Origin: Sporichthya brevicatena
GTDB taxonomy: Bacteria; Actinomycetota; Actinomycetes; Sporichthyales; Sporichthyaceae
Reading direction: 5' to 3'
Length of the DNA stretch: 64,000 nt
Assembly: GCF_039525035.1 (NCBI RefSeq)
Contig: NZ_BAAAHE010000008.1
Span: forward strand, 198,625-262,624
In this document: positions 3,823 through 24,577 of the stretch, one piece after another
Layout of the letters: every line of letters begins with the position of its first letter
Numbering within the stretch: position 1 is the stretch's first letter
Program-made: the position numbers and the translations under genes
The notes under the pieces: model-generated
What the model saw: the letters and a program-made list of their open reading frames with translations, nothing else
Databases searched by the model: none
Told to the model about the DNA's origin: nothing

Positions 3823-3862
3823 CGGGTCCGGTTCCATCTGTCAACGACGGCGTAGACAATCC

Positions 3863-3903
3863 TCAACGCTTTCGTTGACGGGGCCGTCAGTCGCGTCTAC
3901 GGT
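3863..3903 (+). promoter_or_regulatory. Promoter with TCAAC-N6-GTTGA operator
   Basis: The inverted repeat TCAAC-gctttc-GTTGA is at 3863-3878. Its right arm is part of a -35 box, TTGACG (3875-3880), followed after 17 bases by a -10 box TACGGT (3898-3903). A repressor bound here would cover the -35. The promoter points at the amidohydrolase gene starting at 3953. The same motif recurs at other promoters up to 24.6 kb. Confidence 0.6.
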
Positions 3904-3952
3904 CGATCCTGACGCAGCGTTCGAGCTGTCTGATGACCCCGGGAGTTCTCAC

Positions 3953-5281
3953 GTGTCCTCCACTTTCCCGACCAACGCGGAACTGAATTCCGGCCCCGGT
4001 GAGCGGGCGATCATCATCTCCTCGGACGGTCACGCGACCGCGCCGATGAAGGACTACGCGAAGTACATCCCGGCCGCGTACCAGGAGGACTTCGCCGAGT
4101 TCTGCGTCGAGTTCGAGAAGGTCGGTGCGCGCACCACGGACCCGGCCAGCCTCCGGAACCGGATGGATGAGTACCTGGTCGAGGAGTGGATCGAGACCGT
4201 CATCGAGCCCGGTCGGCTCGAGGGCCAGGGCGACCCGCACAAGCGGATCAAGGAGCTCAACCACGAGGGCATCGCCGGGGAGATCCTGTTCCCGGACTTC
4301 GGCCTGCCGTGGGAGCTGCACCCGCCGCTCAAGGCCGCGCTGATCGGCTACAAGCGCAGCCCGGAGAAGGTCGAGGTCGCGAACAAGGCGCACAACCGCT
4401 GGCTCGCGGACTTCTGCTCCGCCTACCCCGACCGCTTCGGCGGGCTCGCCGTCGTCAGCTTCGCCGACGTCGACGACACGATCGCGGAGATCCGCTGGGC
4501 CAAGGAGAACGGCCTGATCGGCATCGCGCTGCCGAGCCTGGACGAGTCGACGCCGTTCTTCCACTCCCGGCACGACCCGATCTGGGAGGTGCTGCAGGAG
4601 CTGGAGATGCCGATCAACAGCCACACGGCGATCTCCTCGATCAGTACCCACATGGCCACCGGGACGCTGATGGCGGTTCCGCACCCGGCGTGCGCGGTGC
4701 CGATGATGACCGCGCAGGCGTTCTTCTCGACCCAGCAGATCCTCACGCACATGATCTGGGGCGGGGTGTTCGAGCGCTTCCCGGGGCTGAACCTGGTGAT
4801 GACCGAGCAGGGCTCGGGCTGGGTGATCAGCGCCCTGCAGTCGATGGACTACACGTGGGAGAAGTCCTACCTGCGCCGCGACGTCCGCGAGGTCGTGAAG
4901 GAGAAGCCGTCGTTCTACTTCCAGCGCCAGTGCCACATGGGCAGCTCGCTGTTCTCCCGCGCCGAGGCGATCGCACGTCACGAGATCGGCATCGACAAGA
5001 TCCAGATCGGCATGGACTACCCGCACCACGAGGGCACGTGGGGCGCGGGGCCGGGCACGCTCGACTGGCTGCGGTCCACCCTCGGTGCGGCCGGCGCCTC
5101 CCCCGAGGACGCGCGCAAGATGCTCAGCGAGAACGCCGCCAAGCTCTGGGGCTTCGACCTGGACAAGCTCCGGCCGGTCGCCGACGAGATCGGCCTCAAG
5201 ATGGACGCGCTGCTCACCCCGAACGACTACGACTTCTTCCCCCGGGGCGACGTGCACAAGCCGCTCGCGACTGCGTTCTAG
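3953..5281 (+). CDS. Amidohydrolase-2 family metal-dependent hydrolase
   Basis: A 442-residue protein of the amidohydrolase-2 (TIM-barrel) family, whose members hydrolyse or decarboxylate ring-derived acids. Visible family features are the N-terminal IISSDGHATAP strand, the central INSHTAISS segment with a metal-type His, and the C-terminal MDYPHHEGTWG strand with an Asp-x-x-His-His cluster. Start GTG 3953 is chosen because GGGAG (3941-3945) sits 7 bases upstream and the frame before it is an abiE remnant. The substrate is unknown. It resembles the second amidohydrolase of this segment (18218) in fold class only; both lie behind the same operator motif. Confidence 0.82.
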   Translation: MSSTFPTNAELNSGPGERAIIISSDGHATAPMKDYAKYIPAAYQEDFAEFCVEFEKVGARTTDPASLRNRMDEYLVEEWIETVIEPGRLEGQGDPHKRIKELNHEGIAGEILFPDFGLPWELHPPLKAALIGYKRSPEKVEVANKAHNRWLADFCSAYPDRFGGLAVVSFADVDDTIAEIRWAKENGLIGIALPSLDESTPFFHSRHDPIWEVLQELEMPINSHTAISSISTHMATGTLMAVPHPACAVPMMTAQAFFSTQQILTHMIWGGVFERFPGLNLVMTEQGSGWVISALQSMDYTWEKSYLRRDVREVVKEKPSFYFQRQCHMGSSLFSRAEAIARHEIGIDKIQIGMDYPHHEGTWGAGPGTLDWLRSTLGAAGASPEDARKMLSENAAKLWGFDLDKLRPVADEIGLKMDALLTPNDYDFFPRGDVHKPLATAF

Positions 5282-5293
5282 CGCACGGGACTT

Positions 5294-5944
5294 CTAGGCG
5301 GCGGATGCGGGCGGGACGATGCCGGCCAGGAAGAGCTCGGCGAAAGATGCGGCGATCTCCTCCGGCGCGACGGGATACGTCGGGCGGTACCAGCGGTACA
5401 TCCAATTGATCATGCCGAACAACGACATTGCCGCGACGTTGATCGAGATGTCGCCGCGCAGCGCACCCTCTTCCTGGCCCTGACGGAGGATCGCTCGGAC
5501 GAGCGCCTCGTACTGGCGTGTCTCCTCGATGATCTCCACCGCCCAAGCACTGTCCTGACGGGCGATGCGGCCCAGATCCTCGACGTGGACATTCATGTGC
5601 GGGTAGAACTCGGCGAACCCGACCACCATCGAGTAGATCAGAGCCCGGATCTTGTCAGGTGTCGAGTCGTTGCTCCGCTGGATTGCGCGCGCCGCCGCCA
5701 TGTCGTGGGCGAGCGCCTCGCGGACGATCTCCTGCAGCACTTCCTCCTTGCTGCCGAAGTAGTAGTAGATCGAGGCTCGGTCCGTGCTGAGCGCCTCCGC
5801 GACGTCTCGCAAGGTGGCTTCGTAGCCCTTCTCGCGGAAGATGTGCGCTGCCGTACGCAGAATCTCCTGCCTCCGGGCGATGTAGGCAGTGCCGCCTTCC
5901 TCGATGGCCGCCTGTCTCCTGCTTTCGATCCCGCTGTTCGGCAT
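5294..5944 (-). CDS. TetR-family regulator (first of a tandem pair)
   Basis: A 216-residue TetR protein. The N-terminal HTH spans about residues 24-70 (REKGYEATLRDVAEAL, then STDRASIYYYFGSKEEV as recognition helix); the rest is an all-helical ligand domain. It lies 14 bases downstream of a second TetR gene and is clearly related to it along the whole length (for example SLFGMINWMYRWYRPTY against NLFGMINWTHRWYTPDS). It converges with the amidohydrolase gene. The near-identical recognition helices suggest both proteins read the same operator, probably TCAAC-N6-GTTGA. The ligand is probably a CoA ester or substrate of the catabolic genes; this is inference. Confidence 0.88.
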   Translation of the reverse strand: MPNSGIESRRQAAIEEGGTAYIARRQEILRTAAHIFREKGYEATLRDVAEALSTDRASIYYYFGSKEEVLQEIVREALAHDMAAARAIQRSNDSTPDKIRALIYSMVVGFAEFYPHMNVHVEDLGRIARQDSAWAVEIIEETRQYEALVRAILRQGQEEGALRGDISINVAAMSLFGMINWMYRWYRPTYPVAPEEIAASFAELFLAGIVPPASAA

Positions 5945-5958
5945 GCTCGATCCCCGGA

Positions 5959-6630
5959 CTACTTCTTGGTTCCGGAGTCGGCCAGGGCAGGGCCACCATG
6001 GCCTCGGAAGAAGATCTCGGTGATCGACTGGATGACTTCTTCTGGCGTGTACTCGGAGTCGGGCGTGTACCACCGGTGCGTCCAGTTGATCATGCCGAAG
6101 AGATTCAGGCTGGCGAGATGGACCGGGACGTCCGCGCGGAAGGTCCCGTCCGCCTGGCCTTGCGTCAGGATCCGCATGACGATCGACTCGAATCGCCGGG
6201 AGGTGCGCTGCACGTCGTGCGACCACTCGGTGTCCAGACGTGAGATGCGTGCCATGTCCTCGACGTAAACGTACAAGTACGGGTAGTTGCGGTGAAACGA
6301 CTCAATCATCTCGCGGATGAGCATCTCGATCTTTTGAGCCGGGGCCGCCTTGCGTGCGTCGATCCGGCGGGCCGCGAGGAAGTTGTCCTTGACAGCCATG
6401 CGGACGATCTCCTGCATCAGCTCTTCTTTGTTGCTGACGTAGTAGTACAGGGACGCGCGGTCGGTACCGACCCGCTCGGCGACGTCGGTCAGAGTCGCGT
6501 TCTCGAATCCCAGTTCACGAAAGGCGGCCGCGGCGCCCCTGATGATCTCCTCGCGTCGGTCCCGGTAGATCCGGCTCGATGCGTCGCGGGCGGCCTGCCG
6601 CCTCGCCTTGATGCCTCCGCGGTTGTCCAT
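5959..6630 (-). CDS. TetR-family regulator (second of a tandem pair)
   Basis: A 223-residue TetR protein with HTH at about residues 30-78 (RELGFENATLTDVAERV and GTDRASLYYYVSNKEEL). ATG 6630 starts the two-gene tetR operon, which is divergent from an SDR gene at 6887. The 256-base gap between them carries two TCAAC-N6-GTTGA sites, consistent with autoregulation and control of the SDR. Overall organisation resembles KstR2-like actinobacterial catabolic repressors, but the family match is only at the TetR level. Confidence 0.88.
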   Translation of the reverse strand: MDNRGGIKARRQAARDASSRIYRDRREEIIRGAAAAFRELGFENATLTDVAERVGTDRASLYYYVSNKEELMQEIVRMAVKDNFLAARRIDARKAAPAQKIEMLIREMIESFHRNYPYLYVYVEDMARISRLDTEWSHDVQRTSRRFESIVMRILTQGQADGTFRADVPVHLASLNLFGMINWTHRWYTPDSEYTPEEVIQSITEIFFRGHGGPALADSGTKK

Positions 6631-6727
6631 CTACCAGATTTCTTGTGCTCGGTCCGGGTCTGAGTCGCGCCATCATAGGTGCGACCGCGGGTCCCAGAGC
6701 GTGAAGCCGCTCCCGCGCGGCGATTCG

Positions 6728-6833
6728 TCAACAACTTTGTTGATTTTATCTGATCGTCCGTGCCGCCACCAGAGCGGGCGCTGGCTGACGGATCGTCATC
6801 TACCCCTCGGGCCGATGTCAACAGAAGAGTTGA
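6728..6833. promoter_or_regulatory. Two operators between tetR pair and SDR
   Basis: TCAAC-aacttt-GTTGA is at 6728-6743 and TCAAC-agaaga-GTTGA at 6818-6833, centres 90 bp apart. They sit on either side of the divergent intergenic region, so one may serve each direction. No convincing -10 box was found for either gene. Confidence 0.55.
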
Positions 6834-6886
6834 CGAGCTGGCGGGACGGTGGAACCTTGGGCGCAATCGGACGAGGGAGAACTGTC

Positions 6887-7645
6887 GTGGTCAAACTCAG
6901 TGATCAACCGGTCGCCATTGTGACCGGGGGTGGAAGCGGGATGGGCCTGGCCACCGCGTCCGAACTTGCTTCCGACCATCACGTCGTCGTGGTCGGCCGG
7001 CGCAAGGACGTGCTCGAGGACGCGGTGAGCGCGATCGGCGAGCAGGCTTCGGCGTTCCCAGCCGATCTGACGGACGTGGATCAGGTGCAGGCGGTCGCCG
7101 ATCACGTCGTCGAGACCTTTGGTCGCGTTGACGTGCTCGTCAACATGGCTGGCGTCCGGCCGCCAATGCTCTACACCGACGCCGACCTGCGCGAGGCGGT
7201 GGCAGTGTGGCACGAGCAGATGGCGCTGAACGCCACCTCCCAGTTCATGATGGCCTTCGCGGTGGCCCGCCACCTGACGCGCCCCGGGGGCCGCATCGTG
7301 AACGTGAGCTCAGAGGCGGCCGTCTCCGGTGGCAGCCTGCCTGGGATGTCCACGTACGCCGCTGCGAAAGGTGCCGTGCACGGCCTCACCCTTTCGCTTG
7401 CGCGCGAACTCTCACCGGTCGGGATCACGGTGAACTGCGTCGTTCCCGGGTATGTCGAGGCGACGGGGCTGACCGCAGACTTCGGCGAGGCCCAGCGGGA
7501 AGCGCTGGCTGAGCGGATTCCGGTACGCCGCGCCGGCCGGGTTTCGGACATGGCCAGCGCGGTGCGGTACCTGGTCTCCGAGGGAGCAGGCTTCGTCACG
7601 GGCCAGTTCCTGCATCTCAACGGAGGTTCGACCTTCGGCCGGTAG
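6887..7645 (+). CDS. Short-chain dehydrogenase/reductase
   Basis: A 252-residue classical SDR. The NAD(P)-binding motif TGGGSGMG lies at about residues 12-19, NMAGV (the NNAG position) near 85, and the catalytic Ser and YxxxK are visible as SSEAAVSG and TYAAAKGAVHG. It ends with the usual GQFLHLNGGSTF. Start GTG 6887 has GAGGGAGA (6873-6880) at good spacing. Members oxidise hydroxyl groups or reduce keto groups; the substrate is not determined. It is divergent from the tetR pair and likely co-regulated with the LLM-HyuBA operon downstream. Confidence 0.87.
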   Translation: MVKLSDQPVAIVTGGGSGMGLATASELASDHHVVVVGRRKDVLEDAVSAIGEQASAFPADLTDVDQVQAVADHVVETFGRVDVLVNMAGVRPPMLYTDADLREAVAVWHEQMALNATSQFMMAFAVARHLTRPGGRIVNVSSEAAVSGGSLPGMSTYAAAKGAVHGLTLSLARELSPVGITVNCVVPGYVEATGLTADFGEAQREALAERIPVRRAGRVSDMASAVRYLVSEGAGFVTGQFLHLNGGSTFGR

Positions 7646-7710
7646 GCGGACGCTGAGTTGGCGTCAGAAGCGCGGGAGGGATGGCCTGCGTAGGCGCTTG
7701 CCCAGGCCCG

Positions 7711-7791
7711 GCAACACCAGTGTTGATAATTGGCAACACCAGTGTTGACCGGGCTCTCAGGCCGGCCTATGCTCCTCAACATTGGCGTTGA
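7711..7791 (+). promoter_or_regulatory. Promoter with three operators upstream of LLM-HyuBA operon
   Basis: Three inverted repeats are present: GCAAC-accagt-GTTGA at 7711-7726 and again at 7733-7748 (centres 22 bp apart), and TCAAC-attggc-GTTGA at 7776-7791. A near-consensus promoter lies among them: -35 TTGACC (7745-7750), 17-base spacer, -10 TATGCT (7768-7773). The second operator overlaps the -35 and the third covers the predicted start point near 7780, an arrangement suited to tight repression. Confidence 0.68.
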
Positions 7792-7825
7792 CATGGCGCC
7801 GGATTCCTGACGGGAGTTGAAGGCC

Positions 7826-8980
7826 GTGAAGTTTCACCTGGTGCAGCCGGGAACAATCGGGTCGAAGGAGGAGATCCAGCAGGGGATGGCGGGTCAGCGC
7901 AAGGACCTGTACCTGCGCTACCTGGAGGAGATCCGCCAGTACGTCGGCATGGCTGACGATCTCGGCTACGCCAGCTACGGGCACAACGAGCACCACCTGC
8001 AACTCGAGGGCTTCGAGGTCACGAACCACCCGGGAATGTTCAGCCTTTTCATCGGCCAGAACTCGAAGCGGATCAAGGCCGCGACCCTCGGTTACGTGCT
8101 CCCCACGCACAACCCCGTCCGCGTCGCCGAGGAGATCGCCACGCTCGACAACATGTTGCAGGGTCGCTTGATCGTCGGGTTCACGCGTGGGTACCAGGGC
8201 CGCTGGGTCGGTTCATACGCCTCGATCCAGGGCGTCGGGGCGACGACGCCCGAGTTGGCGAAGTCGCGGGACGACATCGACACGATGAACCGCGAGATCT
8301 TCGAGGAATCGGTCAGCGTCGTGAAGAAGGCATGGATGAACTCCACCTTCACCCACAAGGGGAAGTGGTGGCAGTTCCCGCCCGAGGGCGGACTGCCCGG
8401 CCACCCCGCCTACGAGGCGTACGGAGCGGGTGTGGGCCCGGATGGACGGGTCGAGGAGATCGGCATCGCGCCCCGGTGCTACCAGGATCCCCACCCGCCG
8501 ATCTACGGCGCCTTCGCGCACAGCATGCGAACGATCACCATGTGGGCCCGCGAAGGAGGCAAACCGATCGTGCTCGCCAACCAGATGGAGTTCTGCGAGG
8601 CGCTGTGGAACAAGTACATCGAAACCGCGGCCAAGTGCGGACGCGAGGTTTCACGGGCCGACGCCGCCGCGTGGGGCGGCATCCTCATCCTCGCGGACTC
8701 CAAGGAGGAAGAGGAGAGGATCCGTGCAGAGTACGAGTGGCAGTACAACACCTGGTTCAAGCCGTTCGGGCAGGGGCTGGCCAACTACCTGATCGGCACT
8801 CCGGACGACATCTGCCGGCAGATCGAAGCCGCTCAGAAGCGCCTCGGGTTCAACGAGATGTGGATCCAGTGGGGCCAGGGCTATCGCTCGTTCGAGAAGA
8901 ACCAAGAGGATTTGCACCGTTTCGCGACCGAGGTGATCCCGAACTTCGCGGACAAGGATGCCGAAGGTACGTGGGTCTGA
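7826..8980 (+). CDS. LLM-class flavin-dependent oxidoreductase
   Basis: A 384-residue luciferase-like TIM-barrel protein. Typical traits are the N-terminal MKFHLVQPGT strand, SYGHNEHHL (the conserved E-H-H near the flavin site), LGYVLPTHNPVRVAEEIATLD and LIVGFTRGYQ. The family uses reduced FMN (or F420H2) for monooxygenation. Start GTG 7826 is preferred over TTG 7817 because the family begins MKFxL. First gene of an operon with HyuB, HyuA, an enoyl-CoA hydratase homologue and a P450; 98 bases separate it from HyuB. Confidence 0.85.
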   Translation: MKFHLVQPGTIGSKEEIQQGMAGQRKDLYLRYLEEIRQYVGMADDLGYASYGHNEHHLQLEGFEVTNHPGMFSLFIGQNSKRIKAATLGYVLPTHNPVRVAEEIATLDNMLQGRLIVGFTRGYQGRWVGSYASIQGVGATTPELAKSRDDIDTMNREIFEESVSVVKKAWMNSTFTHKGKWWQFPPEGGLPGHPAYEAYGAGVGPDGRVEEIGIAPRCYQDPHPPIYGAFAHSMRTITMWAREGGKPIVLANQMEFCEALWNKYIETAAKCGREVSRADAAAWGGILILADSKEEEERIRAEYEWQYNTWFKPFGQGLANYLIGTPDDICRQIEAAQKRLGFNEMWIQWGQGYRSFEKNQEDLHRFATEVIPNFADKDAEGTWV

Positions 8981-9078
8981 TCGATCCGAGCTTGCGTGGA
9001 GGATGGTGGCCGACGCGCCGCCATCCTCCGCTCACGTCACCCTTCTGGTTCGAACCGATCAGCCTGGGACCGGTGAAC

Positions 9079-11445
9079 ATGCACTCGACGGCCACCCCCG
9101 ACGGGGTCATTCGGCACAACGAGGTCGACCTCGACGCGTTCGACCTGGACGAGTGGAACGGGGTGAAGCTGTCCTACATACCGCGGGCCGACGTCCCCGT
9201 TTCACCCGCTCTCCAGCTCGACCGCGAATTCGATGCAGACCCAGATCCGATCACCTCAGAGGTCATCCGCTGGCGTCTTTGGAATATGAACCTCGAACAC
9301 TCCGAGACGCTTAAGCGAGCGTCCGGCACCCCGATCGTGTGCTTCAACGACGATCTGAATACCTCCCTGCTCACCGAGAACGGGGACACCTTCGTCGGCG
9401 GTCCCACCATCCAGTACTTCATCGGTGCTGCCGACCTGGCCGTGAAGTGGACGCTGCAGTTCCGCAGCGAGAACCCGGGCATTCACGACGGCGACATGTA
9501 CATGATCAACGACCCCTACATCGCGTCCACACACCAGATGGACACCGCTATCTGCGCGCCCATCTTCCACGGCGGCCGCCTGTTCGCGTGGACGTTCAGT
9601 GCCGCCCACCAACGTGACCTTGGCGGCGGGGACATCGGCAGCTTCGGTGTCAATGCCACCGACATTTACGGCGAGCCCGTTCCGTGGCCCGCTGTCGCGC
9701 TGCTCCGCAAGGGCGAGCTTCAGAAGGACATCGTCGAGCTGTTCAGCCGGCAGAGCCGATTCCCCGAGCTGTGCGAGCTGCAGCTCCGTGCCCAGGTTGC
9801 CGGGGCCAATTCGGCGAAGCGGCGCATGCTGGAGCTCCTCGACGAGTACGGGCCCCGCCTGGTCAAGGGCGTGATGCGACGGCTCATCCGCGACACCTCC
9901 CACTCGGTCAGTGAACGGCTGCGGGAGATCCCGGATGGGAGCTGGTCCAACGTCACCTACGTCAACGGCAGCGGCGGGCGCCAGATCCACTGTGTCCAGA
10001 TGAACCTCCGCAAGATCGGTGACCAACTGCTCATCTCGAACGAAGGCACCGATCCACAGGTCCCCGGGGGCGGCAACGGGGCCTACAACTCGTTCCGCTC
10101 GACGGTGCTCGCCGCGGCCAACACGCTGCTCGCCTGGGACCATCTGCTCTGTCCGGCCGGGGTGCTCAACCATCTGCAGTTCGCGCCGGTTCCGGGGACG
10201 ATCACGTGCGCACGCTTCCCGGCCGGTGTGAGCATGCCGTTCACCCCTCTGCTTTCGGTCTCGCAGGCCGGGCAGCTGATCAGCTCGATGCTGCTCGCCG
10301 GCCCGGAGCATATGCGCGCACGAGCGATCGCGACGGGCGCATCCTCCAGCTATCAAGGTTCGACGACGTGGGGTGTCGACCGCGACGGACAACCTTTCTT
10401 CGGCCTCACCGGCGACACCATGGCCGGCGGCTTCGGTGCGGCGGCGGGGGTCGACGGTGCCGACAACGGCGGCACCTACTGGTGGCCACGCGGTAACAGC
10501 GGCAACGTCGAGGAGTGGGAGTCGACCATCCCGTTCCTCTACCTGTACCGCCGGTCGCAGCGCGACAGCGGCGGGCCGGGCGAGTTCCGCGGCGGCAACG
10601 GGATCGAGTACGCCCTGCTGGGGCACAAGGCCCAGACCTTCGGGACCCAGCTTGGCGGCAGTCACCCCGCCGTGAACACGACTCCCGGCCTTGCCGGTGG
10701 ATACCCGGGGCACCAGGGTCGGTGGCTCGGCGCGACCGACACCCCGATCCAGGCTCTGCTCAGCAGCGGCATCCTGCCCGCCGACCGCACGGCGCTCGAT
10801 GCAGCCTGCGGTGGCTTGCGCGACCTCAGCAATGGCGAGCGCTTCGACCCGAACGCTGACGGCGTCCTGGTCGTGCACCGCACCGCGGGTGGCGGCTACG
10901 GGGATCCCCTGCGTCGGGACCCCGAGGCGGTCGCCCGCGACGTCGCCGACCGGGCTCTGTCGGCTGAGGCCGCCCGGCTGGACTACGGGGTGATCCTGGA
11001 CGGCACCGTCGTCGACGGCCCAGCTACAGGCGAGGAGCGGGCGAGACGTCGAGCGCAACGACTGGCAACGGCGGAACCGCCCCGATCGCCGGCCAAGGCA
11101 CCGCTCGGGCGCGAGCTCGAGCGGCAGCCCGTCACCGCCGCCGTCGCGCTGACCCGGTACGCAGAGGGCGCAGTTTGGGTGTGCGAGTACTGCGACCACG
11201 TCCTCGCCGAGGAAGCGGTCGGCTACCGCGGCGGATCGGCGATGTGGCAGTCGACGCCGTCCGACGTCGACGCCGAGCGGTACCCGGACGTCCGCCCCCA
11301 CGTCGACGCCGAGGTGGTGCTGCGGGAGTGGTACTGCCCTGGTTGCGCCGACATCCTGACGATCGACTTCTGCCTGGCCGAGGACCCGCCGGCGGTTGAC
11401 GTGACCCTCGCCGCCGGCGCGGCCCGTTCGAAGGAGAGTGTCTGA
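9079..11445 (+). CDS. Hydantoinase B/oxoprolinase-type subunit with C-terminal zinc-ribbon domain
   Basis: A 788-residue protein. Residues about 45-620 are a HyuB domain (markers MYMINDPYIASTHQMD, VPGGGNGAYNSF, DSGGPGEFRGGNGIEY, TAGGGYGDPL). A C-terminal module (about 690-775) has two paired-cysteine sites, CEYCDHVLAEE and WYCPGCADIL, like the small gamma-type subunit of acetone/acetophenone carboxylases. HyuA/HyuB relatives include ATP-dependent hydantoinases and ketone carboxylases. The fused cysteine-rich domain favours a carboxylase-like complex with the next gene product, but the substrate is unknown. ATG 9079 was chosen; GTG 9073 is possible. The next gene overlaps it by one base. Confidence 0.82.
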   Translation: MHSTATPDGVIRHNEVDLDAFDLDEWNGVKLSYIPRADVPVSPALQLDREFDADPDPITSEVIRWRLWNMNLEHSETLKRASGTPIVCFNDDLNTSLLTENGDTFVGGPTIQYFIGAADLAVKWTLQFRSENPGIHDGDMYMINDPYIASTHQMDTAICAPIFHGGRLFAWTFSAAHQRDLGGGDIGSFGVNATDIYGEPVPWPAVALLRKGELQKDIVELFSRQSRFPELCELQLRAQVAGANSAKRRMLELLDEYGPRLVKGVMRRLIRDTSHSVSERLREIPDGSWSNVTYVNGSGGRQIHCVQMNLRKIGDQLLISNEGTDPQVPGGGNGAYNSFRSTVLAAANTLLAWDHLLCPAGVLNHLQFAPVPGTITCARFPAGVSMPFTPLLSVSQAGQLISSMLLAGPEHMRARAIATGASSSYQGSTTWGVDRDGQPFFGLTGDTMAGGFGAAAGVDGADNGGTYWWPRGNSGNVEEWESTIPFLYLYRRSQRDSGGPGEFRGGNGIEYALLGHKAQTFGTQLGGSHPAVNTTPGLAGGYPGHQGRWLGATDTPIQALLSSGILPADRTALDAACGGLRDLSNGERFDPNADGVLVVHRTAGGGYGDPLRRDPEAVARDVADRALSAEAARLDYGVILDGTVVDGPATGEERARRRAQRLATAEPPRSPAKAPLGRELERQPVTAAVALTRYAEGAVWVCEYCDHVLAEEAVGYRGGSAMWQSTPSDVDAERYPDVRPHVDAEVVLREWYCPGCADILTIDFCLAEDPPAVDVTLAAGAARSKESV

Positions 11446-14284: not shown

Positions 14285-14293
14285 GGAGAGCTC

Positions 14294-16360: not shown

Positions 16361-16374
16361 CCGTGAACCTCTCG

Positions 16375-17223
16375 TCAGCCGGCTGCGAAGTGGGTGAGGA
16401 GTCTGTTGTAGAGCACCGGCCGCTCTGCGAAGCACAGGTGCCCCGCTCCGCCCATCACGTAAAGATCCGTGCCAGGCCCGAGTGCGGCTCGCAAATCCAC
16501 ACCGAGTGAGAGTTCCGTCGACGGGTCAGCAGCGCCCCAGATCAGCAGGGTCTCGAGACTGCTGACCGGGTACCAGCGAAGTATCTCGTCCCTCAGTTCG
16601 GCGAGCTCGGCGAAGTACGCGCCCCGCTGCTCCTCGAACGTTGCGCGGCCTTGAAGGGTCTTCGGCTGGCGAAGGATCTCGGTCGCCTCGCCGATCCACT
16701 CCGGGGTCAGGTAGGAAGTGTCGGCCGAGTACCAGTGGAAGTCGGCCTCGGCGGTCTCGGCGAGACCCTGGAAGACCGGAGCGGTGGTGTCGAGTCGCGC
16801 GTCGGCGGAACCGGTGGCGAAGGCCGACGTGTTGGTGAGGACCAGTCGTCGCACGAGCCCCGGCGCGAGCAACGGAAGGTGGGCGGCGACGAAGGCGCCC
16901 CTCGACTGGCCGACCACGGTCGCCTCCCTGACGTTGAGACGTTCGAGGAATGCGACGAGGTGGGCGCTGGTCGCGGACAATCGGTACTGCTCCGGTGTGA
17001 GCGGGTTGTCGGTGTACCCGTGGCCGAGACGGTCGACGGCGATCACGCGATGATGTTCTGCGAGCGCGGCGATGTTGCGTTGCCACACCATCAGGCCCGT
17101 CGAGCCCCACCCGATGTCGCATCCGTGCAACAGGACGATGGGGCAGCCGGACCCCGTGTCGACGTAGGACGTTCCGACACCGGCGACATCGATCCGACGG
17201 CGCTCCAGCATGGAGGGGCTCAT
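16375..17223 (-). CDS. Alpha/beta-fold hydrolase
   Basis: A 282-residue alpha/beta hydrolase. It shows an oxyanion HG segment (IVLLHGCDIGWG), the strand VIAVDRLGHGYTDNP, the nucleophile elbow VGQSRGAF (Ser near residue 110) and a C-terminal GGAGHLCF with the catalytic His. Such enzymes cleave C-C, ester or lactone bonds in ring-degradation pathways. The start ATG overlaps the stop of the SMP-30 gene (4 bases), so the two are translationally coupled. Confidence 0.86.
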   Translation of the reverse strand: MSPSMLERRRIDVAGVGTSYVDTGSGCPIVLLHGCDIGWGSTGLMVWQRNIAALAEHHRVIAVDRLGHGYTDNPLTPEQYRLSATSAHLVAFLERLNVREATVVGQSRGAFVAAHLPLLAPGLVRRLVLTNTSAFATGSADARLDTTAPVFQGLAETAEADFHWYSADTSYLTPEWIGEATEILRQPKTLQGRATFEEQRGAYFAELAELRDEILRWYPVSSLETLLIWGAADPSTELSLGVDLRAALGPGTDLYVMGGAGHLCFAERPVLYNRLLTHFAAG

Positions 17224-18101
17224 CCGGCGAATCGGGTCTCGGGGAGGCCGCGCACCCCGAGACCGTGGATCGCGACGAGGTCGCCCGCCCAGGGCCCTGC
17301 ATCGACCTCGCCGTCCTCACGCGGGAGCAGGTTCTCGGCGGACGACGTCACGTAGAGGATGTCCAGATCCGGGCCGCCGAACATCACACTGGACGTTGTC
17401 TTCATGGGCAGCTCCACGACGCGGTCGACGGCTCCGTCCGGTCGATAACGGATGACCGAGGCTCCGCCGTACATGGCGCTCCAGATGAAGCCCTCGGCAT
17501 CGACGGTCGCGCCGTCGTTCAGCACATACGGGTCGTCGCCGGGGTCGTTCAGCTTGCGGCGGTTGGCGAGCTTGCCCGCCTCGTAGTCGTAGGCGAACAC
17601 TCCGCGGTCGGGTCCCAGGGACTCGGTTAGATAGAAGGTCCGGCCGTCGGGGCTCCAACAGGGCCCGTTGGTGCAGTAGATCCCTTGTTCGATCACCGAC
17701 ACGGTCCTGTCGAGCTCGAGGGTGTACAGGTTGGACCGGGGCTCGCCGTCGAGGGTGAGTGATCCGAAGACGAAGCGCCCGTCGCGATCGACTTTCCCGT
17801 CGTTCAGGCGCACGTTCGGATCGGACGCCTCGACGTCCGACACCAAGGTCAGCGAGCCGGTGTCGAAGTCCAACGCTAAGACACCCTGATCGGTGGCCAG
17901 GACGGCGCCGCCGGCGGCACGGAGGGCCATCGAGCCGATCCTCGTCTGCGTCTCCCAGGCCCGGAACTCCGCCCCACTCGGGCCGCACCGCATGACGGTG
18001 CCACCGAAGGAGTCCAACCAGTAGATGCACTGATCCTCGACGTCCCAGAGCGGCCCCTCGCCCAAGGCCGATTGGACGCCGATGACCCTCTCGATTCGCA
18101 T
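17220..18101 (-). CDS. SMP-30/gluconolactonase-like lactonase
   Basis: A 293-residue six-bladed beta-propeller of the SMP-30/gluconolaconase/LRE family. Family metal ligands are visible: E15 in ALGEGPLWD, Asn in RLNDGKVDRDG, Asn in CTNGPCWSPDG and Asp in LNDGATVDAEG. It is expected to hydrolyse a lactone in the cytosol. First gene of the leftward operon with the alpha/beta hydrolase and SDR; divergent from the amidohydrolase gene at 18218. A TAGGGT box at 18114-18109 lies 13 bases before the start codon, compatible with leaderless transcription. Confidence 0.87.
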   Translation of the reverse strand: MRIERVIGVQSALGEGPLWDVEDQCIYWLDSFGGTVMRCGPSGAEFRAWETQTRIGSMALRAAGGAVLATDQGVLALDFDTGSLTLVSDVEASDPNVRLNDGKVDRDGRFVFGSLTLDGEPRSNLYTLELDRTVSVIEQGIYCTNGPCWSPDGRTFYLTESLGPDRGVFAYDYEAGKLANRRKLNDPGDDPYVLNDGATVDAEGFIWSAMYGGASVIRYRPDGAVDRVVELPMKTTSSVMFGGPDLDILYVTSSAENLLPREDGEVDAGPWAGDLVAIHGLGVRGLPETRFAG

Positions 18102-18134
18102 AGCGCCAACCCTAGGGATCTGGTGCCGAGTAAG

Positions 18135-18211
18135 TCCACACCAGTGTTGACGCGAGAATTCTCGTCAACACTGGTGTGGATCTATCGTCAACATCAGAGT
18201 TGACATAGACT
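18135..18211. promoter_or_regulatory. Divergent control region with large palindrome and three operators
   Basis: Operators are TCCAC-accagt-GTTGA (18135-18150), TCAAC-actggt-GTGGA (18165-18180) and TCAAC-atcaga-GTTGA (18188-18203). The first two are mirror images and, with the CGAGAATTCTCG palindrome between them, form a 46-bp almost perfect inverted repeat (16-bp arms). A TAGACT -10 box at 18206-18211 stands exactly 12 bases before ATG 18218, so the amidohydrolase mRNA is probably leaderless. The region would serve both 18101 (leftward) and 18218 (rightward). Confidence 0.65.
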
Positions 18212-18217
18212 CGGGGC

Positions 18218-19423
18218 ATGTTTACGCCTCGTCAGACGGGTCCGTTCGCCGGCCTGCGGTTGATTGATGCCGACTCCCATGTCACCGAACCGGAAGACTT
18301 GTGGACCTCACGCGCTCCGGCGAAGTTCGCCGACCGTGTCCCGGGGACGCGCGCAGCTTCCGACGGCCAGAGCTACTGGTTCGTCGACGGCCTGCAGCTG
18401 AGCCGCAACAACAGCATCGCGTTCGTGAACAAGGCCGGCGAGAAGGTCCCATACTACGGCTCCGACATGGAGCTGGCCGACGGCAAGATCGGCGCCGCCA
18501 AGGAGGACATCCACCGCGCTGCCGTTGAGGCGAAGCCGCGCGTGGAACTGCTCGACGAGATGGGCATCTACGCGCAGATCGTGTACCCGAACATCATGGG
18601 CTTCGCGGCGCCGGCGATGGTCCAGGGCCTCGATCGCGATCTGTCCTACCTGATCTGCCAGATCTTCAACGACGCCATGCGTGAATGGCAAGCCGAGGGT
18701 TCGGAACGTCTGCTGCCGCAGGCGATGCTTCCGTTCTGGGACATCGAGCAGTCGATCGCCGAAGCTCGGCGCGCCAAGAACATTGGTCTGACCGGTGTGC
18801 TGATGGCGGGAGAGCCCCATCTCGGTGGTCTGCCCGACCTCGCCACCGAGCACTGGTACCCGCTGTATGAGGTGCTCTCGGAGCTGGAGTTGCCGATCAA
18901 CATCCACATCGGCGCTCGCAACTGGAAGGGCGAGCAGGGTGGCGCGGCCTGGCCCTCGCTCCCCGAGCGGGCTGCCAAGCCGGTTCGGTCGATTCAGACC
19001 GAGCTCTCGAACAGCCGCTTCATCTCCAACCTGTGCGCGTCGGACGTCCTGATCCGCTACCCGAAGCTGAACTGGGTCAGCGTCGAGTCGGGCATCGGCT
19101 GGATCCCGTACGTTCTCGAGCGCATCGACTACGAGTACCGGGAGGAGTTCCCCGGCGGCCTCCCCCCTGAGCTTCCGCCGGCCAAGGAGATGTTCCAGAA
19201 GGGAATCTTCGGCACCTTCTGGTTCGAGGACGCCGGCCCCTTGGTCCTGCTCGACCGGATCGGCGCGGACAACGTGCTGTGGGAGACGGATTTCCCGCAC
19301 CCGACGAGCCTCTACCCGAATCCCGTGGAGCGCTCGGAGGAGAAGCTGGCAGTCCTCAGCCCGGACGTGGTGCGCAAGATCGTTCAGGACAACGCCGCCA
19401 AGCTCTACAAGATCGAGGTTTGA
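18218..19423 (+). CDS. Amidohydrolase-2 family protein
   Basis: A 401-residue amidohydrolase-2 protein. The N-terminal metal motif is IDADSHVTEPEDLW (D-x-H-x-x-E-P), the central strand is INIHIGARN and the C-terminal strand is WETDFPHPTSLYPNP with the catalytic Asp. Relatives include ACMSD-type decarboxylases and uncharacterised actinobacterial hydrolases of steroid- and terpene-like ring degradation. First gene of an operon with a thiolase-like protein (one-base gap) and a DUF35 protein. Confidence 0.85.
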   Translation: MFTPRQTGPFAGLRLIDADSHVTEPEDLWTSRAPAKFADRVPGTRAASDGQSYWFVDGLQLSRNNSIAFVNKAGEKVPYYGSDMELADGKIGAAKEDIHRAAVEAKPRVELLDEMGIYAQIVYPNIMGFAAPAMVQGLDRDLSYLICQIFNDAMREWQAEGSERLLPQAMLPFWDIEQSIAEARRAKNIGLTGVLMAGEPHLGGLPDLATEHWYPLYEVLSELELPINIHIGARNWKGEQGGAAWPSLPERAAKPVRSIQTELSNSRFISNLCASDVLIRYPKLNWVSVESGIGWIPYVLERIDYEYREEFPGGLPPELPPAKEMFQKGIFGTFWFEDAGPLVLLDRIGADNVLWETDFPHPTSLYPNPVERSEEKLAVLSPDVVRKIVQDNAAKLYKIEV

Positions 19424-19424
19424 C

Positions 19425-20591
19425 GTGCGCGGCTCGTCGGCGGTCATCGGCATCGGGGAGTCCCCGTACTATCGCGCGGGTCGTTCCCCCTACACCGCGC
19501 GCCACATGGCGGCGATGGCCGTCCGTGCGGCGGTCGAGGACGCGGGCATCAGCCCGGACGAGGTGGACGGGATAGTCACCTTTCACCCCGACCAGCACGA
19601 CTCCGCGCACCTGTGGTCGTGGCTCGGCCTGGGCGAGCTGCGCTGGGCGGCCAAGGCCTGGGGTGGTGGTGGCAACAGCGGCGCCGCCGCCGTCCAGCTC
19701 GCCGACGCCGCCGTCACCGCCGGGTACGCCCGCAATGTCATCGTCTTCCGTGCGTTGAACCAGGGCACCGAGGGCCGCTACGGGCGGTACAACGCAACGG
19801 CCCGACCCGACAACGACCATGCCTTCACCGTTCCCTTCGGGGCGGCGATGCCGGTGGTGAAGAACGCCCTGCTGACACGAAAGTTCCTGCACCAGCACCG
19901 GATCAGCCAGGACGCGCTCGCGGACATCGCGCTGGCGTCGTACGAGCATGCGCAGTACAACCCCCGCGCGATCATGTACGGAAAGCCGCTGACGCGCGAG
20001 GCCTACCACGCGTCGCGGTGGATTGCGGAGCCGCTGCATTTGTACGACTGCTGTCAGGAGAGCGACGGCGCGTGCGCGTTGATCGTCAGTTCCGCTTCGG
20101 CTGCTCGCGTAGGCAGACAGAAGCCTGCCTATCTGCTGGCGGGCGCGACCGGAATGCCGCCGCGCGGAGGCTTGTGGGGTTTCAACGACGATGCATATCC
20201 CTCGGGTCGCTTCGTGCCGGTGGGACGCCAACTCTGGGAGCGGGCCGGGGTCGGACCCGGCGACGTGGACGTTGCGCAGTTCTACGAGAACTTCACGGGC
20301 ACGACGCTGATCGCGATCTCGGACATTGGCTTCGCTCCGCCTGAGGAGCTGGAGAAGTTCGTCTCCGGCGGCCGCCTCCACGTCGGCGGCGGCGGCCTAC
20401 CGATCAACACCAGCGGCGGAAATCTGGCCGAGGCGTACATCCACGGCCTGCAACTGATGGTGGAGGCCGTGCGCCAGATCCGGGGCACGTCCACCCGTCA
20501 GGTCACCGACGCCCGCCTGTCCCTGTTCGCCGCCGGTCCCGGCACCTCGCCGTCTTCCGCCGTCCTGCTGTCTGCCGAGGAGCCGTCATGA
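19425..20591 (+). CDS. Thiolase-like (lipid-transfer/SCP-x type) acyltransferase
   Basis: A 388-residue thiolase-fold protein of the acetyl-CoA acetyltransferase/lipid-transfer group (AVIGIGESPYYRAGRSP start; C-terminal GGGLPINTSGGNLAEAYIHG). The usual HDCF-type His segment reads AQFYENFTGTT. These proteins work as a complex with a DUF35/OB-fold partner, which here is the next gene (4-base overlap). Such pairs catalyse thiolytic or retro-aldol side-chain cleavage of CoA esters. GTG 19425 follows the previous stop by one base. Confidence 0.85.
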   Translation: MRGSSAVIGIGESPYYRAGRSPYTARHMAAMAVRAAVEDAGISPDEVDGIVTFHPDQHDSAHLWSWLGLGELRWAAKAWGGGGNSGAAAVQLADAAVTAGYARNVIVFRALNQGTEGRYGRYNATARPDNDHAFTVPFGAAMPVVKNALLTRKFLHQHRISQDALADIALASYEHAQYNPRAIMYGKPLTREAYHASRWIAEPLHLYDCCQESDGACALIVSSASAARVGRQKPAYLLAGATGMPPRGGLWGFNDDAYPSGRFVPVGRQLWERAGVGPGDVDVAQFYENFTGTTLIAISDIGFAPPEELEKFVSGGRLHVGGGGLPINTSGGNLAEAYIHGLQLMVEAVRQIRGTSTRQVTDARLSLFAAGPGTSPSSAVLLSAEEPS

Positions 20592-21022
20592 GCACCCGCT
20601 ACCTTCCCACGGGGTGGACTCTCCCCGCCATCACCCCGTGGAACCGGCCCTTCTTCACCGCAGCTCAGCTGCTCATCCAGGTCTGCACGAGCTGTGAGGG
20701 GGCGCAACACCCGCCCCTTGACTTCTGTCATCGGTGCCAGGGTCATGACTTGGACTACCGCGCGGCCGCCGGAACCGGAGTGATCGACAACTTCTCCGTG
20801 GTGCACCACGCCGGCAGCGCCATGCTCAAGGACGTGCTGCCGTACAACGTCGTGCTGGTCGAGCTCTCGGACTTCCCAGGTCTCCTCGTGCTCGGCAACG
20901 TCGTGGACGAGGACTGGCACGAGCGGCTCCAGGTCGGCGCGGAGGTACGGGTCGAGTTCGCCGAGGTCACCGACCCGGATACGGGCGAGTTGCTCGCGCT
21001 TCCCCAGTGGCGTTTGAGCTGA
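20588..21022 (+). CDS. DUF35 OB-fold/zinc-ribbon protein, thiolase partner
   Basis: A 144-residue protein with a rubredoxin-like zinc ribbon (CTSC and CHRC, at about residues 36-52) followed by an OB-fold (AAGTGVIDNFSVVHH to EVRVEFAEVTD). The DUF35 family supports thiolases and aldolases acting on acyl-CoA. Its start overlaps the thiolase stop, so the two subunits are likely made in equal amounts. The last 56 bases overlap the 3' end of the opposing acyl-CoA synthetase gene. Confidence 0.86.
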   Translation: MSTRYLPTGWTLPAITPWNRPFFTAAQLLIQVCTSCEGAQHPPLDFCHRCQGHDLDYRAAAGTGVIDNFSVVHHAGSAMLKDVLPYNVVLVELSDFPGLLVLGNVVDEDWHERLQVGAEVRVEFAEVTDPDTGELLALPQWRLS

Positions 21023-22481
21023 GGACCTGGTCGCGTAGTAGCCGCTTGGATACCTTGCCTGTGGGCGTCAGTGGAAGCTGATCGGCCGTCAGGATCCAGA
21101 CGTGTCGTGGCACCTTGTAGCTGGAAACCCTTTCTCGTGCCCAGGCGATGACGTCTTGGGTGAGTCGCTCAGGGTCGTCCGTCGCGCTGACGATGACGGC
21201 GCCGACCTCTTGGTCGCCCGTGGTGGTGTCCACACCGAAGACGAAGGCTTCTTCGACCTCTTGATGCCCGACCAGCAGGGACTCGACCTCGGCGGGGGAG
21301 ATGTTGATGCCCTTCGCCTTGATGAGCTCATAACTGCGGCCGACGAAGTGCAGGCGGTCGTTCTCGTCGAGCCAGGCCAGGTCGCCGGTGCGGAACCAGC
21401 CGTCGGCGTCGAACGCCTCGGCGTTGAGCTCGGCCGCTGTCCGGTCGGGGGCGTCGAGGTATCCAGGCGTGATGATGCCCCGGATCTGCAGGTGGCCGGT
21501 GGTTCCGTGTTCCACGGGACCACCGTCGTTCGCGACCACGCGGACCTCCTGGGTCGGCAGCGCCGTGCCCTGTGTCGTCATGCGGATTTCGGGCGGATCG
21601 CGGTGGTCCGTGATCGTGGAATGGCCGTGGCCCTCGGTCATGCCGTACGCGTTGCAGACCTCGGAGATGCCGAGGACCTCGATGGCGATGCGGAGGTCCT
21701 CCGGTGTGGCGTTGGCGGTGCCGGTCCTCAGGGCGGAGATGTCGCGAGCGGCGAGGTCGGGGTGGGCTGCGAGGGCGCGGGTGATCGGCGCGACACCGTA
21801 GTAGACGGTGCAGCGCTCGCGTTCGATGAACTCCAGGGCCGCTCCTGGCTCGAACCGCTCCTGAAGGCACAGCGTCGCGCCGTGCACGAGGGCGTTCGGC
21901 AGCGCGTTCGAACAGCCGAAGACGAAGAACAAGGGGAGGGCGAACCAGATCCGGTCCGCCTCCCGAACGCCCTGGCGGTCCCCGATCGCTCGCGCGGTCA
22001 GGATCATTCCTGCCTGGGTCAACGGCACCGCTTTCGGTTCCGCCGACGACCCGCTGGTGAACAGGAGCAACGCGATGTCGGTCTCGCCCGTCGGTGCGTG
22101 TCGCAACGCTTGGCATGCCCCGGCGCTTTCATGGGCAGTGGCCGAGAAGTCGTCCTCCTCGGTCAGAACGACCGTCGGCGTCGCGCGCCTGAGGACCGCA
22201 TCGAGCTCGTACTGCTTGTACCACGTGTTGAGCGGAAGCGCGGTGGCTCCGGCGGCGTGGGTCGCGAGGAGACCAACGACCCATCGGACTCCGTTGGGAA
22301 GCTTCAGCCCGACGCGGTCGCCGGGCTCGACACCGCGCGCACGGAGCCGAGCGGCCAGCGTGGCTGCGCGGGCGGCGACCTCGCCGTAGCTCGCTCGGCC
22401 GTCGTCGCCGACGACGAACTCCCGGTCGGGATGAGCGGCCGCAGCCGCGGCGAGCACTCCCGGTGTCGTTAGGTCCGACAT
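20967..22481 (-). CDS. Class I adenylate-forming acyl-CoA synthetase/ligase
   Basis: A 504-residue ANL-superfamily enzyme. Visible motifs are ALLLFTSGSSAEPKAVPL (P-loop, about residues 145-162), NAYGMTEG (A5), WFRTGDLAW (A7) and the C-terminal lysine in TPTGKVSKR. It activates a carboxylic acid with ATP and CoA. It is the last gene of the leftward unit P450 - membrane protein - ligase and sits 1 base after the membrane-protein stop. The chain or ring specificity is not readable. Confidence 0.88.
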   Translation of the reverse strand: MSDLTTPGVLAAAAAAHPDREFVVGDDGRASYGEVAARAATLAARLRARGVEPGDRVGLKLPNGVRWVVGLLATHAAGATALPLNTWYKQYELDAVLRRATPTVVLTEEDDFSATAHESAGACQALRHAPTGETDIALLLFTSGSSAEPKAVPLTQAGMILTARAIGDRQGVREADRIWFALPLFFVFGCSNALPNALVHGATLCLQERFEPGAALEFIERERCTVYYGVAPITRALAAHPDLAARDISALRTGTANATPEDLRIAIEVLGISEVCNAYGMTEGHGHSTITDHRDPPEIRMTTQGTALPTQEVRVVANDGGPVEHGTTGHLQIRGIITPGYLDAPDRTAAELNAEAFDADGWFRTGDLAWLDENDRLHFVGRSYELIKAKGINISPAEVESLLVGHQEVEEAFVFGVDTTTGDQEVGAVIVSATDDPERLTQDVIAWARERVSSYKVPRHVWILTADQLPLTPTGKVSKRLLRDQVLSSNATGEARATRPYPGR

Positions 22482-22482
22482 G

Positions 22483-23304
22483 TTAGGCCGTGCCGGCGAG
22501 ATCGGCGGCCGGCTTTTCGCCGTCAGCCACGGGGAATCCCTTGGCGGGCACGAAACGCGTGGCCAGGTGGATCATCGCGACGCCGGTAGCGATAACGAGC
22601 ATCGTCGCGGCATAGATCCAACCCTGATCCGGGTCGGCGCTGTGCACCAGCGTCCACAGCACACTCGGGATGAAGATGAGGCCGAGGGTCATGCAAATCC
22701 CCGGTAGGAGGAAGGCGGCGAGGATCGCGTCAGGTCCGGCGAGCGAACGACGGATGCGTGCGCCGACGATGCCGATACTGACCACGATGGTGGTGTTGAG
22801 GATGCAGATCCACACCGGGAAGCTGGCGACCTTGAACGCTGCGGGCCCGTAGTACGTGTACAGATCGAGAAGATTGATCATGAAGAGCTCGGAGGCTGCG
22901 AGGTAGGCGGCCACGGGGATGCAGGCCGTGAGGAGCTTGCGGCGTGGCCATCCGCCTTCGGTCAGGCGCCAGAAGAGCAGGCCGAATCCGCCGTAGACGA
23001 CGGTGTAGCTGAAGTATGTCCACGTCGGGAACGGATTCTCGTAGGACGTGTAGAGCGTGTTCTGATCAGGCGCGTAGTACCAGAGGTTCGCGACGACGTC
23101 GGGCAACGGTTCGATCAACGCGCAGAATGTGGAGCCGAGCGCAATCGCGACGGGGACCCACGAGTCGTACTTCATTCGAAGCCGAACGGCCGCCACATAG
23201 ACCGCGATCACGCCGAGGGCGATCGCGATTTCCATGATCGTCTGGTTGGTGGTGTTCGTCGCCTGCTCCGCGATGTCGGACGGCGGCAGGGGAAGGAAGT
23301 TCAC
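22483..23304 (-). CDS. Polytopic membrane protein coupled to a P450 gene, function unknown
   Basis: A 273-residue hydrophobic protein with about seven predicted membrane segments, including IMEIAIALGVIAVYVAAV, FSYTVVYGGFGLLFW, LLTACIPVAAYLAASEL and ILNTTIVVSIGIVG. No family was recognised. The GTG start at 23304 overlaps the P450 stop by four bases; ATG 23319 is an alternative. Tight coupling to a P450 and an acyl-CoA ligase suggests a role in substrate uptake or in membrane association of the oxidation step, but this is only context. Confidence 0.72.
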   Translation of the reverse strand: MNFLPLPPSDIAEQATNTTNQTIMEIAIALGVIAVYVAAVRLRMKYDSWVPVAIALGSTFCALIEPLPDVVANLWYYAPDQNTLYTSYENPFPTWTYFSYTVVYGGFGLLFWRLTEGGWPRRKLLTACIPVAAYLAASELFMINLLDLYTYYGPAAFKVASFPVWICILNTTIVVSIGIVGARIRRSLAGPDAILAAFLLPGICMTLGLIFIPSVLWTLVHSADPDQGWIYAATMLVIATGVAMIHLATRFVPAKGFPVADGEKPAADLAGTA

Positions 23305-24464
23305 GACATGGTGTCCCATCGTGCGAGGAGCTTCTGGTAGCTCCGGCTGGTGCCGAAACGGGCGATGGCGGCGCCCTCGCCGGCCAGTCGGAGGTTGGGC
23401 ATCCGTGCGAGCACCTGCTCCAGCACGACCTTGAGCTCGAGACGGGCAAGAGGGGCGCCGACGCAGCGGTGGATGCCCTGACCGAAGCCGACGTGGCGGT
23501 TGCTGTCGCGACCAAGCATGAACTCTTCGGGGTTCTCGAACTCTGCTGGGTCCCGGTTGGCGCTGCCCCACAGCAACAGCACCTTGGAGCCCGCCGGAAT
23601 CGTGACGTCGTCGACGGTCGCCTCGGCGAGGGTGTTCCGGGCGAGCCCGGGCAGCGGTGCCATCAGACGCACGGCTTCCTCGGCCGCACCCGGAATGAGC
23701 GAAGGGTTTGCCTTGAGTTGCTCAGCGATCGAAGGGTCGCGCGCGAGGTAGTACAGCAGACCGCCGATGCCCCCGACGGTCGTCTCGTGGCCGGCTCCGA
23801 GCAGCAGGAAGGCCATCGAAATCTGTTCCGCAAACGTGAGCGGCACGCCCTCGATCTCGAGGGTCGCGATGTCGGTCATGAGGTCATCGCGGGGGCTCGC
23901 GGCGCGATCCTCGAGTTGCGCAGCGAGGTAGTCGACGAACTCGTTCGTCGCGACCGTGGCGGCCTCGGGGTCCTCGGCCGCAGAGTGCCCGACGATGCGG
24001 CTCATCTGGTCGCGGAAGATGTGCCAGTCGCTGTCCGGCAGGCCCATCAGCAGTGCCATCACGAGCGGCGGTACCGGCTCACAAAGCTCCCGGGCGAGGT
24101 CGGCCTCGCCGCGGTGGACGAAGGTGTCTATGAGTCCGTCCACGATGCCGCGGACCGAGTCCTCAAGCTTCGCCATGCGTCGCGGCGAGAGCCATTGCTG
24201 CAACGGTCGGCGGTAGCGGCTGTGCTCAGGTTCGTCTTGCTCGATGCACACCAACGGAGGCATCGGTTGCTTCGGGATCGTGACGCCACCGGTCGAACTG
24301 AACACCGTGGTGTTCTTGGCGGCCGCACACACGTTTTCGTACGTGCTGAGGAGATAGAACCCGCCGTAGTCATCGATGTGGGCGACCGGACATTGTTCGC
24401 GCAGGGAGGCGTAGTAGGGGCCTGGCTCCTGTGCCACCCCCGGGTCTCGCATCTCGAATCGCAC
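23301..24464 (-). CDS. Cytochrome P450
   Basis: A 387-residue soluble P450 with all canonical elements: I-helix LLLGAGHETTVGG, K-helix EEAVRL and heme loop GFGQGIHRCVGAPLARLE. Length and motifs match actinobacterial hydroxylases of the CYP107/CYP125-like range; a subfamily is not assigned. Start GTG 24464. It heads the leftward operon with the membrane protein and acyl-CoA ligase and is divergent from a di-iron-like gene at 24629, with two TCAAC-type operators between. Confidence 0.9.
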   Translation of the reverse strand: MRFEMRDPGVAQEPGPYYASLREQCPVAHIDDYGGFYLLSTYENVCAAAKNTTVFSSTGGVTIPKQPMPPLVCIEQDEPEHSRYRRPLQQWLSPRRMAKLEDSVRGIVDGLIDTFVHRGEADLARELCEPVPPLVMALLMGLPDSDWHIFRDQMSRIVGHSAAEDPEAATVATNEFVDYLAAQLEDRAASPRDDLMTDIATLEIEGVPLTFAEQISMAFLLLGAGHETTVGGIGGLLYYLARDPSIAEQLKANPSLIPGAAEEAVRLMAPLPGLARNTLAEATVDDVTIPAGSKVLLLWGSANRDPAEFENPEEFMLGRDSNRHVGFGQGIHRCVGAPLARLELKVVLEQVLARMPNLRLAGEGAAIARFGTSRSYQKLLARWDTMS

Positions 24465-24500
24465 GGCTCACCTCGAACTCGGGGGCGCTCGGTTCTGACG

Positions 24501-24577
24501 ACCGTACGGGGCCGCTTGGAAGTCGGTCAACACTCGTGTTGTACTTTTCTGGACTCGTCAACACTCGTGTTGTATTT
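24501..24577. promoter_or_regulatory. Divergent promoters with two operators (P450 / di-iron-like gene)
   Basis: Two identical repeats TCAAC-actcgt-GTTGT lie at 24527-24542 and 24558-24573 (centres 31 bp apart). Leftward, TTGACC (24530-24525) and TACGGT (24506-24501) with an 18-base spacer make a good P450 promoter. Rightward, CTGGAC (24549-24554) and TATTTT (24572-24577) with 17 bases fit the gene at 24629. The operators overlap both. Confidence 0.6.

Follow-up and report, generated by a model that had tools for sequence, protein, structure and literature searches.

The window analysed here comprises 64,000 bp of the Sporichthya brevicatena genome (G000:C8:198625-262624; GC content of 68%). 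Within an island behind a tRNA-Thr gene, it harbors a tandem pair of genes on the minus strand that encode the TetR-type regulators A (5294..5944) and B (5959..6630), together with a recurrent palindromic element, TCAAC-N6-GTTGA, hereafter termed the operator. The two proteins share 46% sequence identity, and possess both the N-terminal helix-turn-helix domain TetR_N (PF00440; 54.4 bits for A and 42.4 bits for B, cut-off 24) and the C-terminal ligand-binding domain TetR_C_24 (PF17932; 80.9 and 77.6 bits, cut-off 26.4). Their recognition helices read STDRASIYYY in A and GTDRASLYYY in B. Gene calling relied on a simple script based on codon usage, an operator is defined by its mismatch count to TCAAC-N6-GTTGA and not by affinity, and all genome-wide site counts come from pattern searches.

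In total, 12 intergenic sites with at most one change from this pattern were found in the window, all between 3.8 and 24.6 kb. Five of them are exact (3863, 6728, 6818, 7776 and 18188), and the remaining seven have one change. If one change is allowed, the 23.1-kb island has 14 sites in total, and its 1.9 kb of intergenic DNA holds 12 of them; no such site occurs in the window outside the island. Markov-shuffled island sequence contains on average 0.3 sites (maximum of 2) and no exact site, versus the five exact sites observed. The signal is given by a spacer of six alone, as spacers of 0-5 and 7-12 yield at most three sites each, at most one of them intergenic. The count matrix derived from 29 sites of the source genome reads TCAACRC-NN-GYGTTGA, a 16-bp palindrome. 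An initial annotation of this DNA had listed 11 of the sites with correct coordinates, had placed them all in intergenic regions and had confined them to one segment, which agrees with our search; the site it missed, at 3841, is also intergenic. It had further allowed for one or two changes in some sites: six of its 11 sites have one change, and none needs two.

An upstream operator is present at all eight transcription units of the island. The amidohydrolase gene (PF04909; 3953..5281, plus strand), the protein of which is 99.3% identical to that encoded at C7:73928-75256 on another contig of the same genome, is preceded by the exact site 3863..3878. The right arm of this site is the -35 box TTGACG (3875-3880), followed by the -10 box TACGGT (3898-3903); a one-change site (TCAACGACGGCGTAGA; 3841..3856) sits 22 bp further upstream. 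Two exact sites lie between the TetR pair and a short-chain dehydrogenase (SDR) gene (6887..7645, plus strand), namely 6728..6743, 98 bp upstream of the TetR pair, and 6818..6833, with the SDR gene downstream. Ahead of a five-gene operon (7817..15619, plus strand; luciferase-like monooxygenase, hydantoinase-B-like protein with an acetone-carboxylase gamma domain, hydantoinase-A-like protein, enoyl-CoA hydratase and P450) are two one-change sites, 7711..7726 and 7733..7748, and the exact site 7776..7791. The right arm of the middle site forms the -35 box TTGACC (7745-7750), which is paired with the -10 box TATGCT (7768-7773), and the exact site is downstream of this -10 box.

Three sites separate the operon at 15575..18101 (minus strand; SMP-30 lactonase, alpha/beta hydrolase and SDR) from that at 18218..21022 (plus strand; amidohydrolase, thiolase-like protein and ChsH2-like OB protein). 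The left arm of the one-change site 18135..18150 makes the leftward -35 box TGGACT from 18138, which is 18 bp away from the -10 box TAGGGT (18114-18109), with a predicted leaderless start at 18101. The one-change site 18165..18180 follows, and then the exact site 18188..18203, directly behind which a TAGACT box can be read at 18206. The last two operons run at 20967..24464 (minus strand; P450, a protein without Pfam match and an AMP-forming CoA ligase at 20967-22481) and at 24629..26376 (plus strand; metal-dependent hydrolase PF10118 and an SDR that scores slightly under the mycofactocin-coupled cut-off). Between them, the one-change site 24527..24542 contributes the leftward -35 box TTGACC from 24530, with the -10 box TACGGT at 18 bp, and a further one-change site is located 31 bp away at 24558..24573. 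The three promoters in which the initial annotation had seen a right arm as the -35 box (3875, 7745 and leftward from 24530) are read correctly, and the promoter leftward from 18138 makes a fourth.

The coincidence of operator arm and -35 box extends beyond the window. TANNNT boxes were counted relative to the TTGA of the arm in 116 gene-facing site/strand pairs of three related genomes, cases that are not independent of each other. The box stands at 17 bp in 21 pairs and at 18 bp in 18 pairs (39/116), and other offsets gave 0 to 7, mostly 0 to 2, with a background of about one per offset. At the loci of other lineages, it was found 8 times at 17 bp and 4 times at 18 bp versus 0.4 per offset; an internal offset of -4, which arises within the palindrome itself, also gave 8. 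These short palindromic operators overlap the promoters of their targets. Moreover, the palindromes at C7:73842, 89931, 105888 and 111708 and at G003:6975 (a genome of another genus) have a -10 box on both sides, so that a single operator supplies a -35 box in each direction. For genes that begin ~33 bp from a site, the predicted transcription start would coincide with the start codon. Repression via the -35 box, as the initial annotation had proposed, is well supported by comparative evidence, the -35 overlap being general.

To which protein the palindrome belongs is indicated by loci of related regulators, comprising DRAS-type relatives 34-66% identical to A (in Antrihabitans, a Rhodococcus metagenome-assembled genome and class-level relatives). 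The motif recurs at the DRAS-type loci of other families (Antrihabitans, the Rhodococcus genome, G299, G315 and G191) and at that of a third TetR of the congeneric genome G001. The motif is present at most 250 bp upstream of the own tetR gene in five of eight DRAS-type loci and in none of five DRAA-type relatives; it precedes tetR at none of 70 loci of more distant TetRs, where 1.3 Mb of DNA contain one exact match. These counts give a Fisher p of ~1e-5, with kinship among loci (L144/L146 and the DRAA set) ignored. A palindrome shared upstream of the DRAA-type TetRs was searched for and none was found. An operator upstream of the regulator's own gene exists in the window as well, in the form of site 6728. 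This TetR clade is the only regulator found repeatedly beside the motif in unrelated lineages, an association rather than a demonstration of binding. The palindrome is well supported as the predicted binding site of TetR-type repressors of this clade, in line with the earlier proposal of the tandem genes at 5294-6630 as the likely source, given that paralogues lie only in site-bearing clusters and that distant DRAS TetRs carry the motif upstream of their own genes.

The source genome contains 16 exact sites, eight of which are on contig C7 and one on contig C47. A 54-kb paralogous cluster at C7:71-126 kb has about 20 sites, with eight exact and ~10 one-change sites in 14 intergenic regions, holds paralogues of most island genes and encodes two TetRs that are 74-75% and 63-64% identical to regulator A. 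The genome has four of these TetR paralogues, located only in site-bearing clusters. On C47, a pair of operators (11884 and 11907) precedes an ABC transporter operon of the branched-chain type, which likely belongs to the regulon in trans and hints at how the substrate is taken up. The only other exact sites outside the two TetR-bearing clusters are a pair at an ArsR-like gene. The genome-wide motif scan that the initial annotation had suggested returns mostly sites at TetR-bearing clusters, and its description of a segment-specific regulon is half right: the segment is indeed an island at tRNA-Thr, but the same operator also serves the larger C7 cluster, which has two TetRs of its own, and C47. 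Probably the TetRs link the island to this second, larger cluster in the same genome.

Both G001 and G003 retain the C7 cluster together with its sites. Of five genomes of the family, three encode these TetRs and contain 16, 12 and 8 exact sites, and the two without them (G002 and G004) have two each, as expected from chance or other regulators; no cluster of sites was found in the family genomes that lack the TetR. The island amidohydrolase DNA is 98.9% identical to the G001 copy versus 97.1% to the C7 copy, with the identity beginning at 3935, downstream of the -10 box. The island and C7 promoters of this gene are unlike in sequence, and the operator/-35 unit is kept in both, a pattern that would fit gene exchange between clusters with conservation of the operator code.

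Some pattern matches were not taken as regulon members. The pair at C8:26.7 kb (26676 and 26720; L020) matches the pattern exactly and was rejected because its core differs, reading CAACC-N4-GGTTG, and an ArsR-like gene follows; this C/G core is nearly absent from the island consensus. Given these exact matches, the bare TCAAC-N6-GTTGA pattern is slightly too loose. The CAACC-N4-GGTTG pair is probably a separate conserved operator, for which no literature on an ArsR-like dyad was found; a similar pair occurs at G001:C1:2000683 and 2000728. In addition, C11:172015 and C38:1287, which match the core pattern CAACRYNNRYGTTG, were dropped, as neither has an intergenic site within two changes of the full motif.

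The operator-bearing segment is a 23-kb genomic island behind tRNA-Thr(TGT) (3386-3459, plus strand). The 3' end of this tRNA gene (from 3413; ~58-66 bp, 97% identical) is repeated at 26562, 28379 and 59175, and the copy at 26562..26629 (plus strand) marks the right boundary. In the congeneric G001, a Fic-family gene stands next to the same flank (a CBS gene and the tRNA-Thr), after which comes the DNA that begins at 29184 in the window; apart from the repeats, this place has no counterpart of the 3.5-29.2 kb region. The segment therefore has the position behind a tRNA gene, the flanking direct repeats and the absence from a relative that define a genomic island, and it belongs to an array of tandem insertions at a single tRNA gene that G001 shares in part. 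The scanned subset of the island genes contains no integrase. Similar tRNA-Thr repeats are present in the G001 contig at 2178228, 2210833 and 2214235. At 3575-3761 and 26819-29002, an AbiEii-type gene (PF08843) is accompanied by repeated and partly truncated copies of the gene that precedes it, which flank the island on either side.

The gene content of the island is a catabolic set centered on CoA esters. NCBIfam and Pfam scans of these genes name no substrate; the resemblance of the hydantoinase-like pair to caprolactamase and to acetophenone carboxylase scores far under the cut-off. A 278-residue protein (22483-23319) without Pfam or NCBIfam match has two C7 paralogues (58% and 51% identity), next to regulon genes for P450s or SDRs.

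Taken together, we favor, with a probability of about 0.8, an explanation in which TCAACRC-NN-GYGTTGA is the operator of a small TetR_C_24 repressor clade, consisting of the tandem island TetRs and the two C7 paralogues, that represses by occluding the -35 box, is released by an acyl-CoA and controls an existing regulon which the island has joined. A TetR dimer would be expected on the palindrome, and would exclude sigma factor and RNA polymerase from the promoter, because at many promoters the TTGA of an arm belongs to the -35 hexamer and the -10 box follows after 17 or 18 bp. Where a -10 box faces each arm, one dimer could silence two divergent promoters together, and additional operators at distances of 18-45 bp probably make repression stronger. 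In the presence of the substrate, an intermediate, most likely an acyl-CoA thioester, would bind the TetR_C_24 domain and free the repressor, and the whole catabolic program, tetR genes included, would be switched on. An acyl-CoA is inferred as the ligand because KstR2 and PfmR are related proteins and the regulon includes CoA enzymes. With a TetR pair of its own and the same code in its operators, the island would have entered a regulon already formed by the C7 cluster and the C47 transporter. More tentatively, the mobile island and the resident cluster may form one regulon via a shared 16-bp code, in which the palindrome serves both as operator and as two -35 boxes arranged back to back, one for each of two divergent and often leaderless promoters that one dimer would close; the four paralogues might all read this code while sensing different intermediates.

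Several observations weigh against this explanation. The sites 6728, 6818 and 7776 have no -10 box at 17 or 18 bp, so that not every operator fits the -35 geometry and only position points to autoregulation of the TetR pair in the window. Nor does the helix rule hold throughout: L149, with a DRAT helix, has the motif, and at the DRAS loci L034 and L148 the 250 bp ahead of tetR contain no site with at most one change. The homologue L035:5982-6610 of Protofrankia coriariae, 66% identical to A, has a broken frame, and operator sites are absent from its surroundings. Because the L144/L146 loci and those of the DRAA set are close relatives of one another, the Fisher value makes the loci look more independent than they are. 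Furthermore, TetR-type activators exist, such as FasR, and some TetRs activate rather than repress.

The island TetRs might accordingly activate, or act both ways, by recruiting RNA polymerase, and some operators do lie upstream of or beside the -35 box (24558 and 7711). This is improbable, as the arm is the -35 hexamer, 17 or 18 bp from the -10 box, in a third of the gene-facing cases, and sites 7776 and 18188 are at or downstream of the -10 box; occlusion is therefore favored. The ArsR-linked dyad CAACC-N4-GGTTG, found twice at C8:26.7 kb, argues that similar half-sites are used by other proteins, and a dimeric regulator encoded elsewhere (for example of the ArsR, GntR or MarR type) could bind the motif while the TetRs use a different operator. 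We regard this as quite improbable: the C/G core of that variant scarcely appears at island sites, no regulator other than this TetR clade was seen to recur beside the motif in unrelated lineages, and family genomes without the TetR have no site cluster. That the motif is a mere promoter feature, with TTGAC -35 boxes in divergent pairs and no dedicated regulator, would account for the many arms that are -35 boxes; however, the palindrome, whose spacer is fixed, is perfect across 10-14 bp, also occurs where neither arm has a -10 box, and is missing from the window's other promoters as well as from genomes of the family that lack the TetR, which makes this reading barely credible.

A variant of the favored explanation, not exclusive of it, holds that the window TetRs are obligate heterodimers, like the halves of Mce3R encoded as separate genes. 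It draws on the tandem arrangement of the two paralogous tetR genes and on the asymmetric arrangement of Mce3R, a fused double TetR (PMC11667970). Yet the operators are symmetric, the recognition helices of A and B are nearly identical, other motif-bearing genomes have a single DRAS TetR at the examined locus, and Mce3R itself binds a non-palindromic sequence; we consider obligate heterodimers unlikely.

No published operator was found for this TetR clade in open-licence papers, including searches of the half-sites together with TetR. The present work defines an operator code and a regulon of ~30 sites for a clade for which we found no operator description, and an acquired island would be tied to a resident pathway by regulation, not by position. 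The covariation of recognition helix (DRAS versus DRAA) and operator may provide a direct handle on TetR specificity, and the operator flags candidate catabolic genes in several actinobacterial families.

By sequence, the nearest solved relatives include KstR2 and PDB 3vpr, which we take to be PfmR/TTHB023. The Thermus thermophilus protein is the closest of them (E value of 5e-29), and likewise has a 16-bp palindromic consensus at genes of lipid/CoA metabolism, with some sites at bidirectional promoters or in pairs. However, that consensus is a different one, (a/c)Y(g/t)A(A/C)YGryCR(g/t)T(c/a)R(g/t) (PMC7022988), and the PfmR helix is GLSKAALYHH compared to STDRASIYYY in regulator A. Mce3R of M. 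tuberculosis resembles the island pair in its doubled TetR and catabolic targets, but it is one fused polypeptide that binds a non-palindromic sequence (PMC11667970), whereas A and B are separate genes with their own stops. KstR2, which controls cholesterol ring catabolism in mycobacteria and rhodococci, is a sequence-related TetR repressor (E value of ~1e-18) that recognizes a short palindrome located between divergent genes of a CoA-dependent catabolic cluster and likewise upstream of its own gene. Its operator is the 14-bp AnCAAGnnCTTGnT, present at three sites that cover 15 genes (PMC3068626). By comparison, the system described here has the 16-bp TCAACRC-NN-GYGTTGA, ~30 sites and four paralogous TetRs, with no steroid pathway shown; its match to KstR2 is distant and its recognition helix is another, which sets it apart from KstR2 orthologues. 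Overall, it is a new regulon under a known kind of control.

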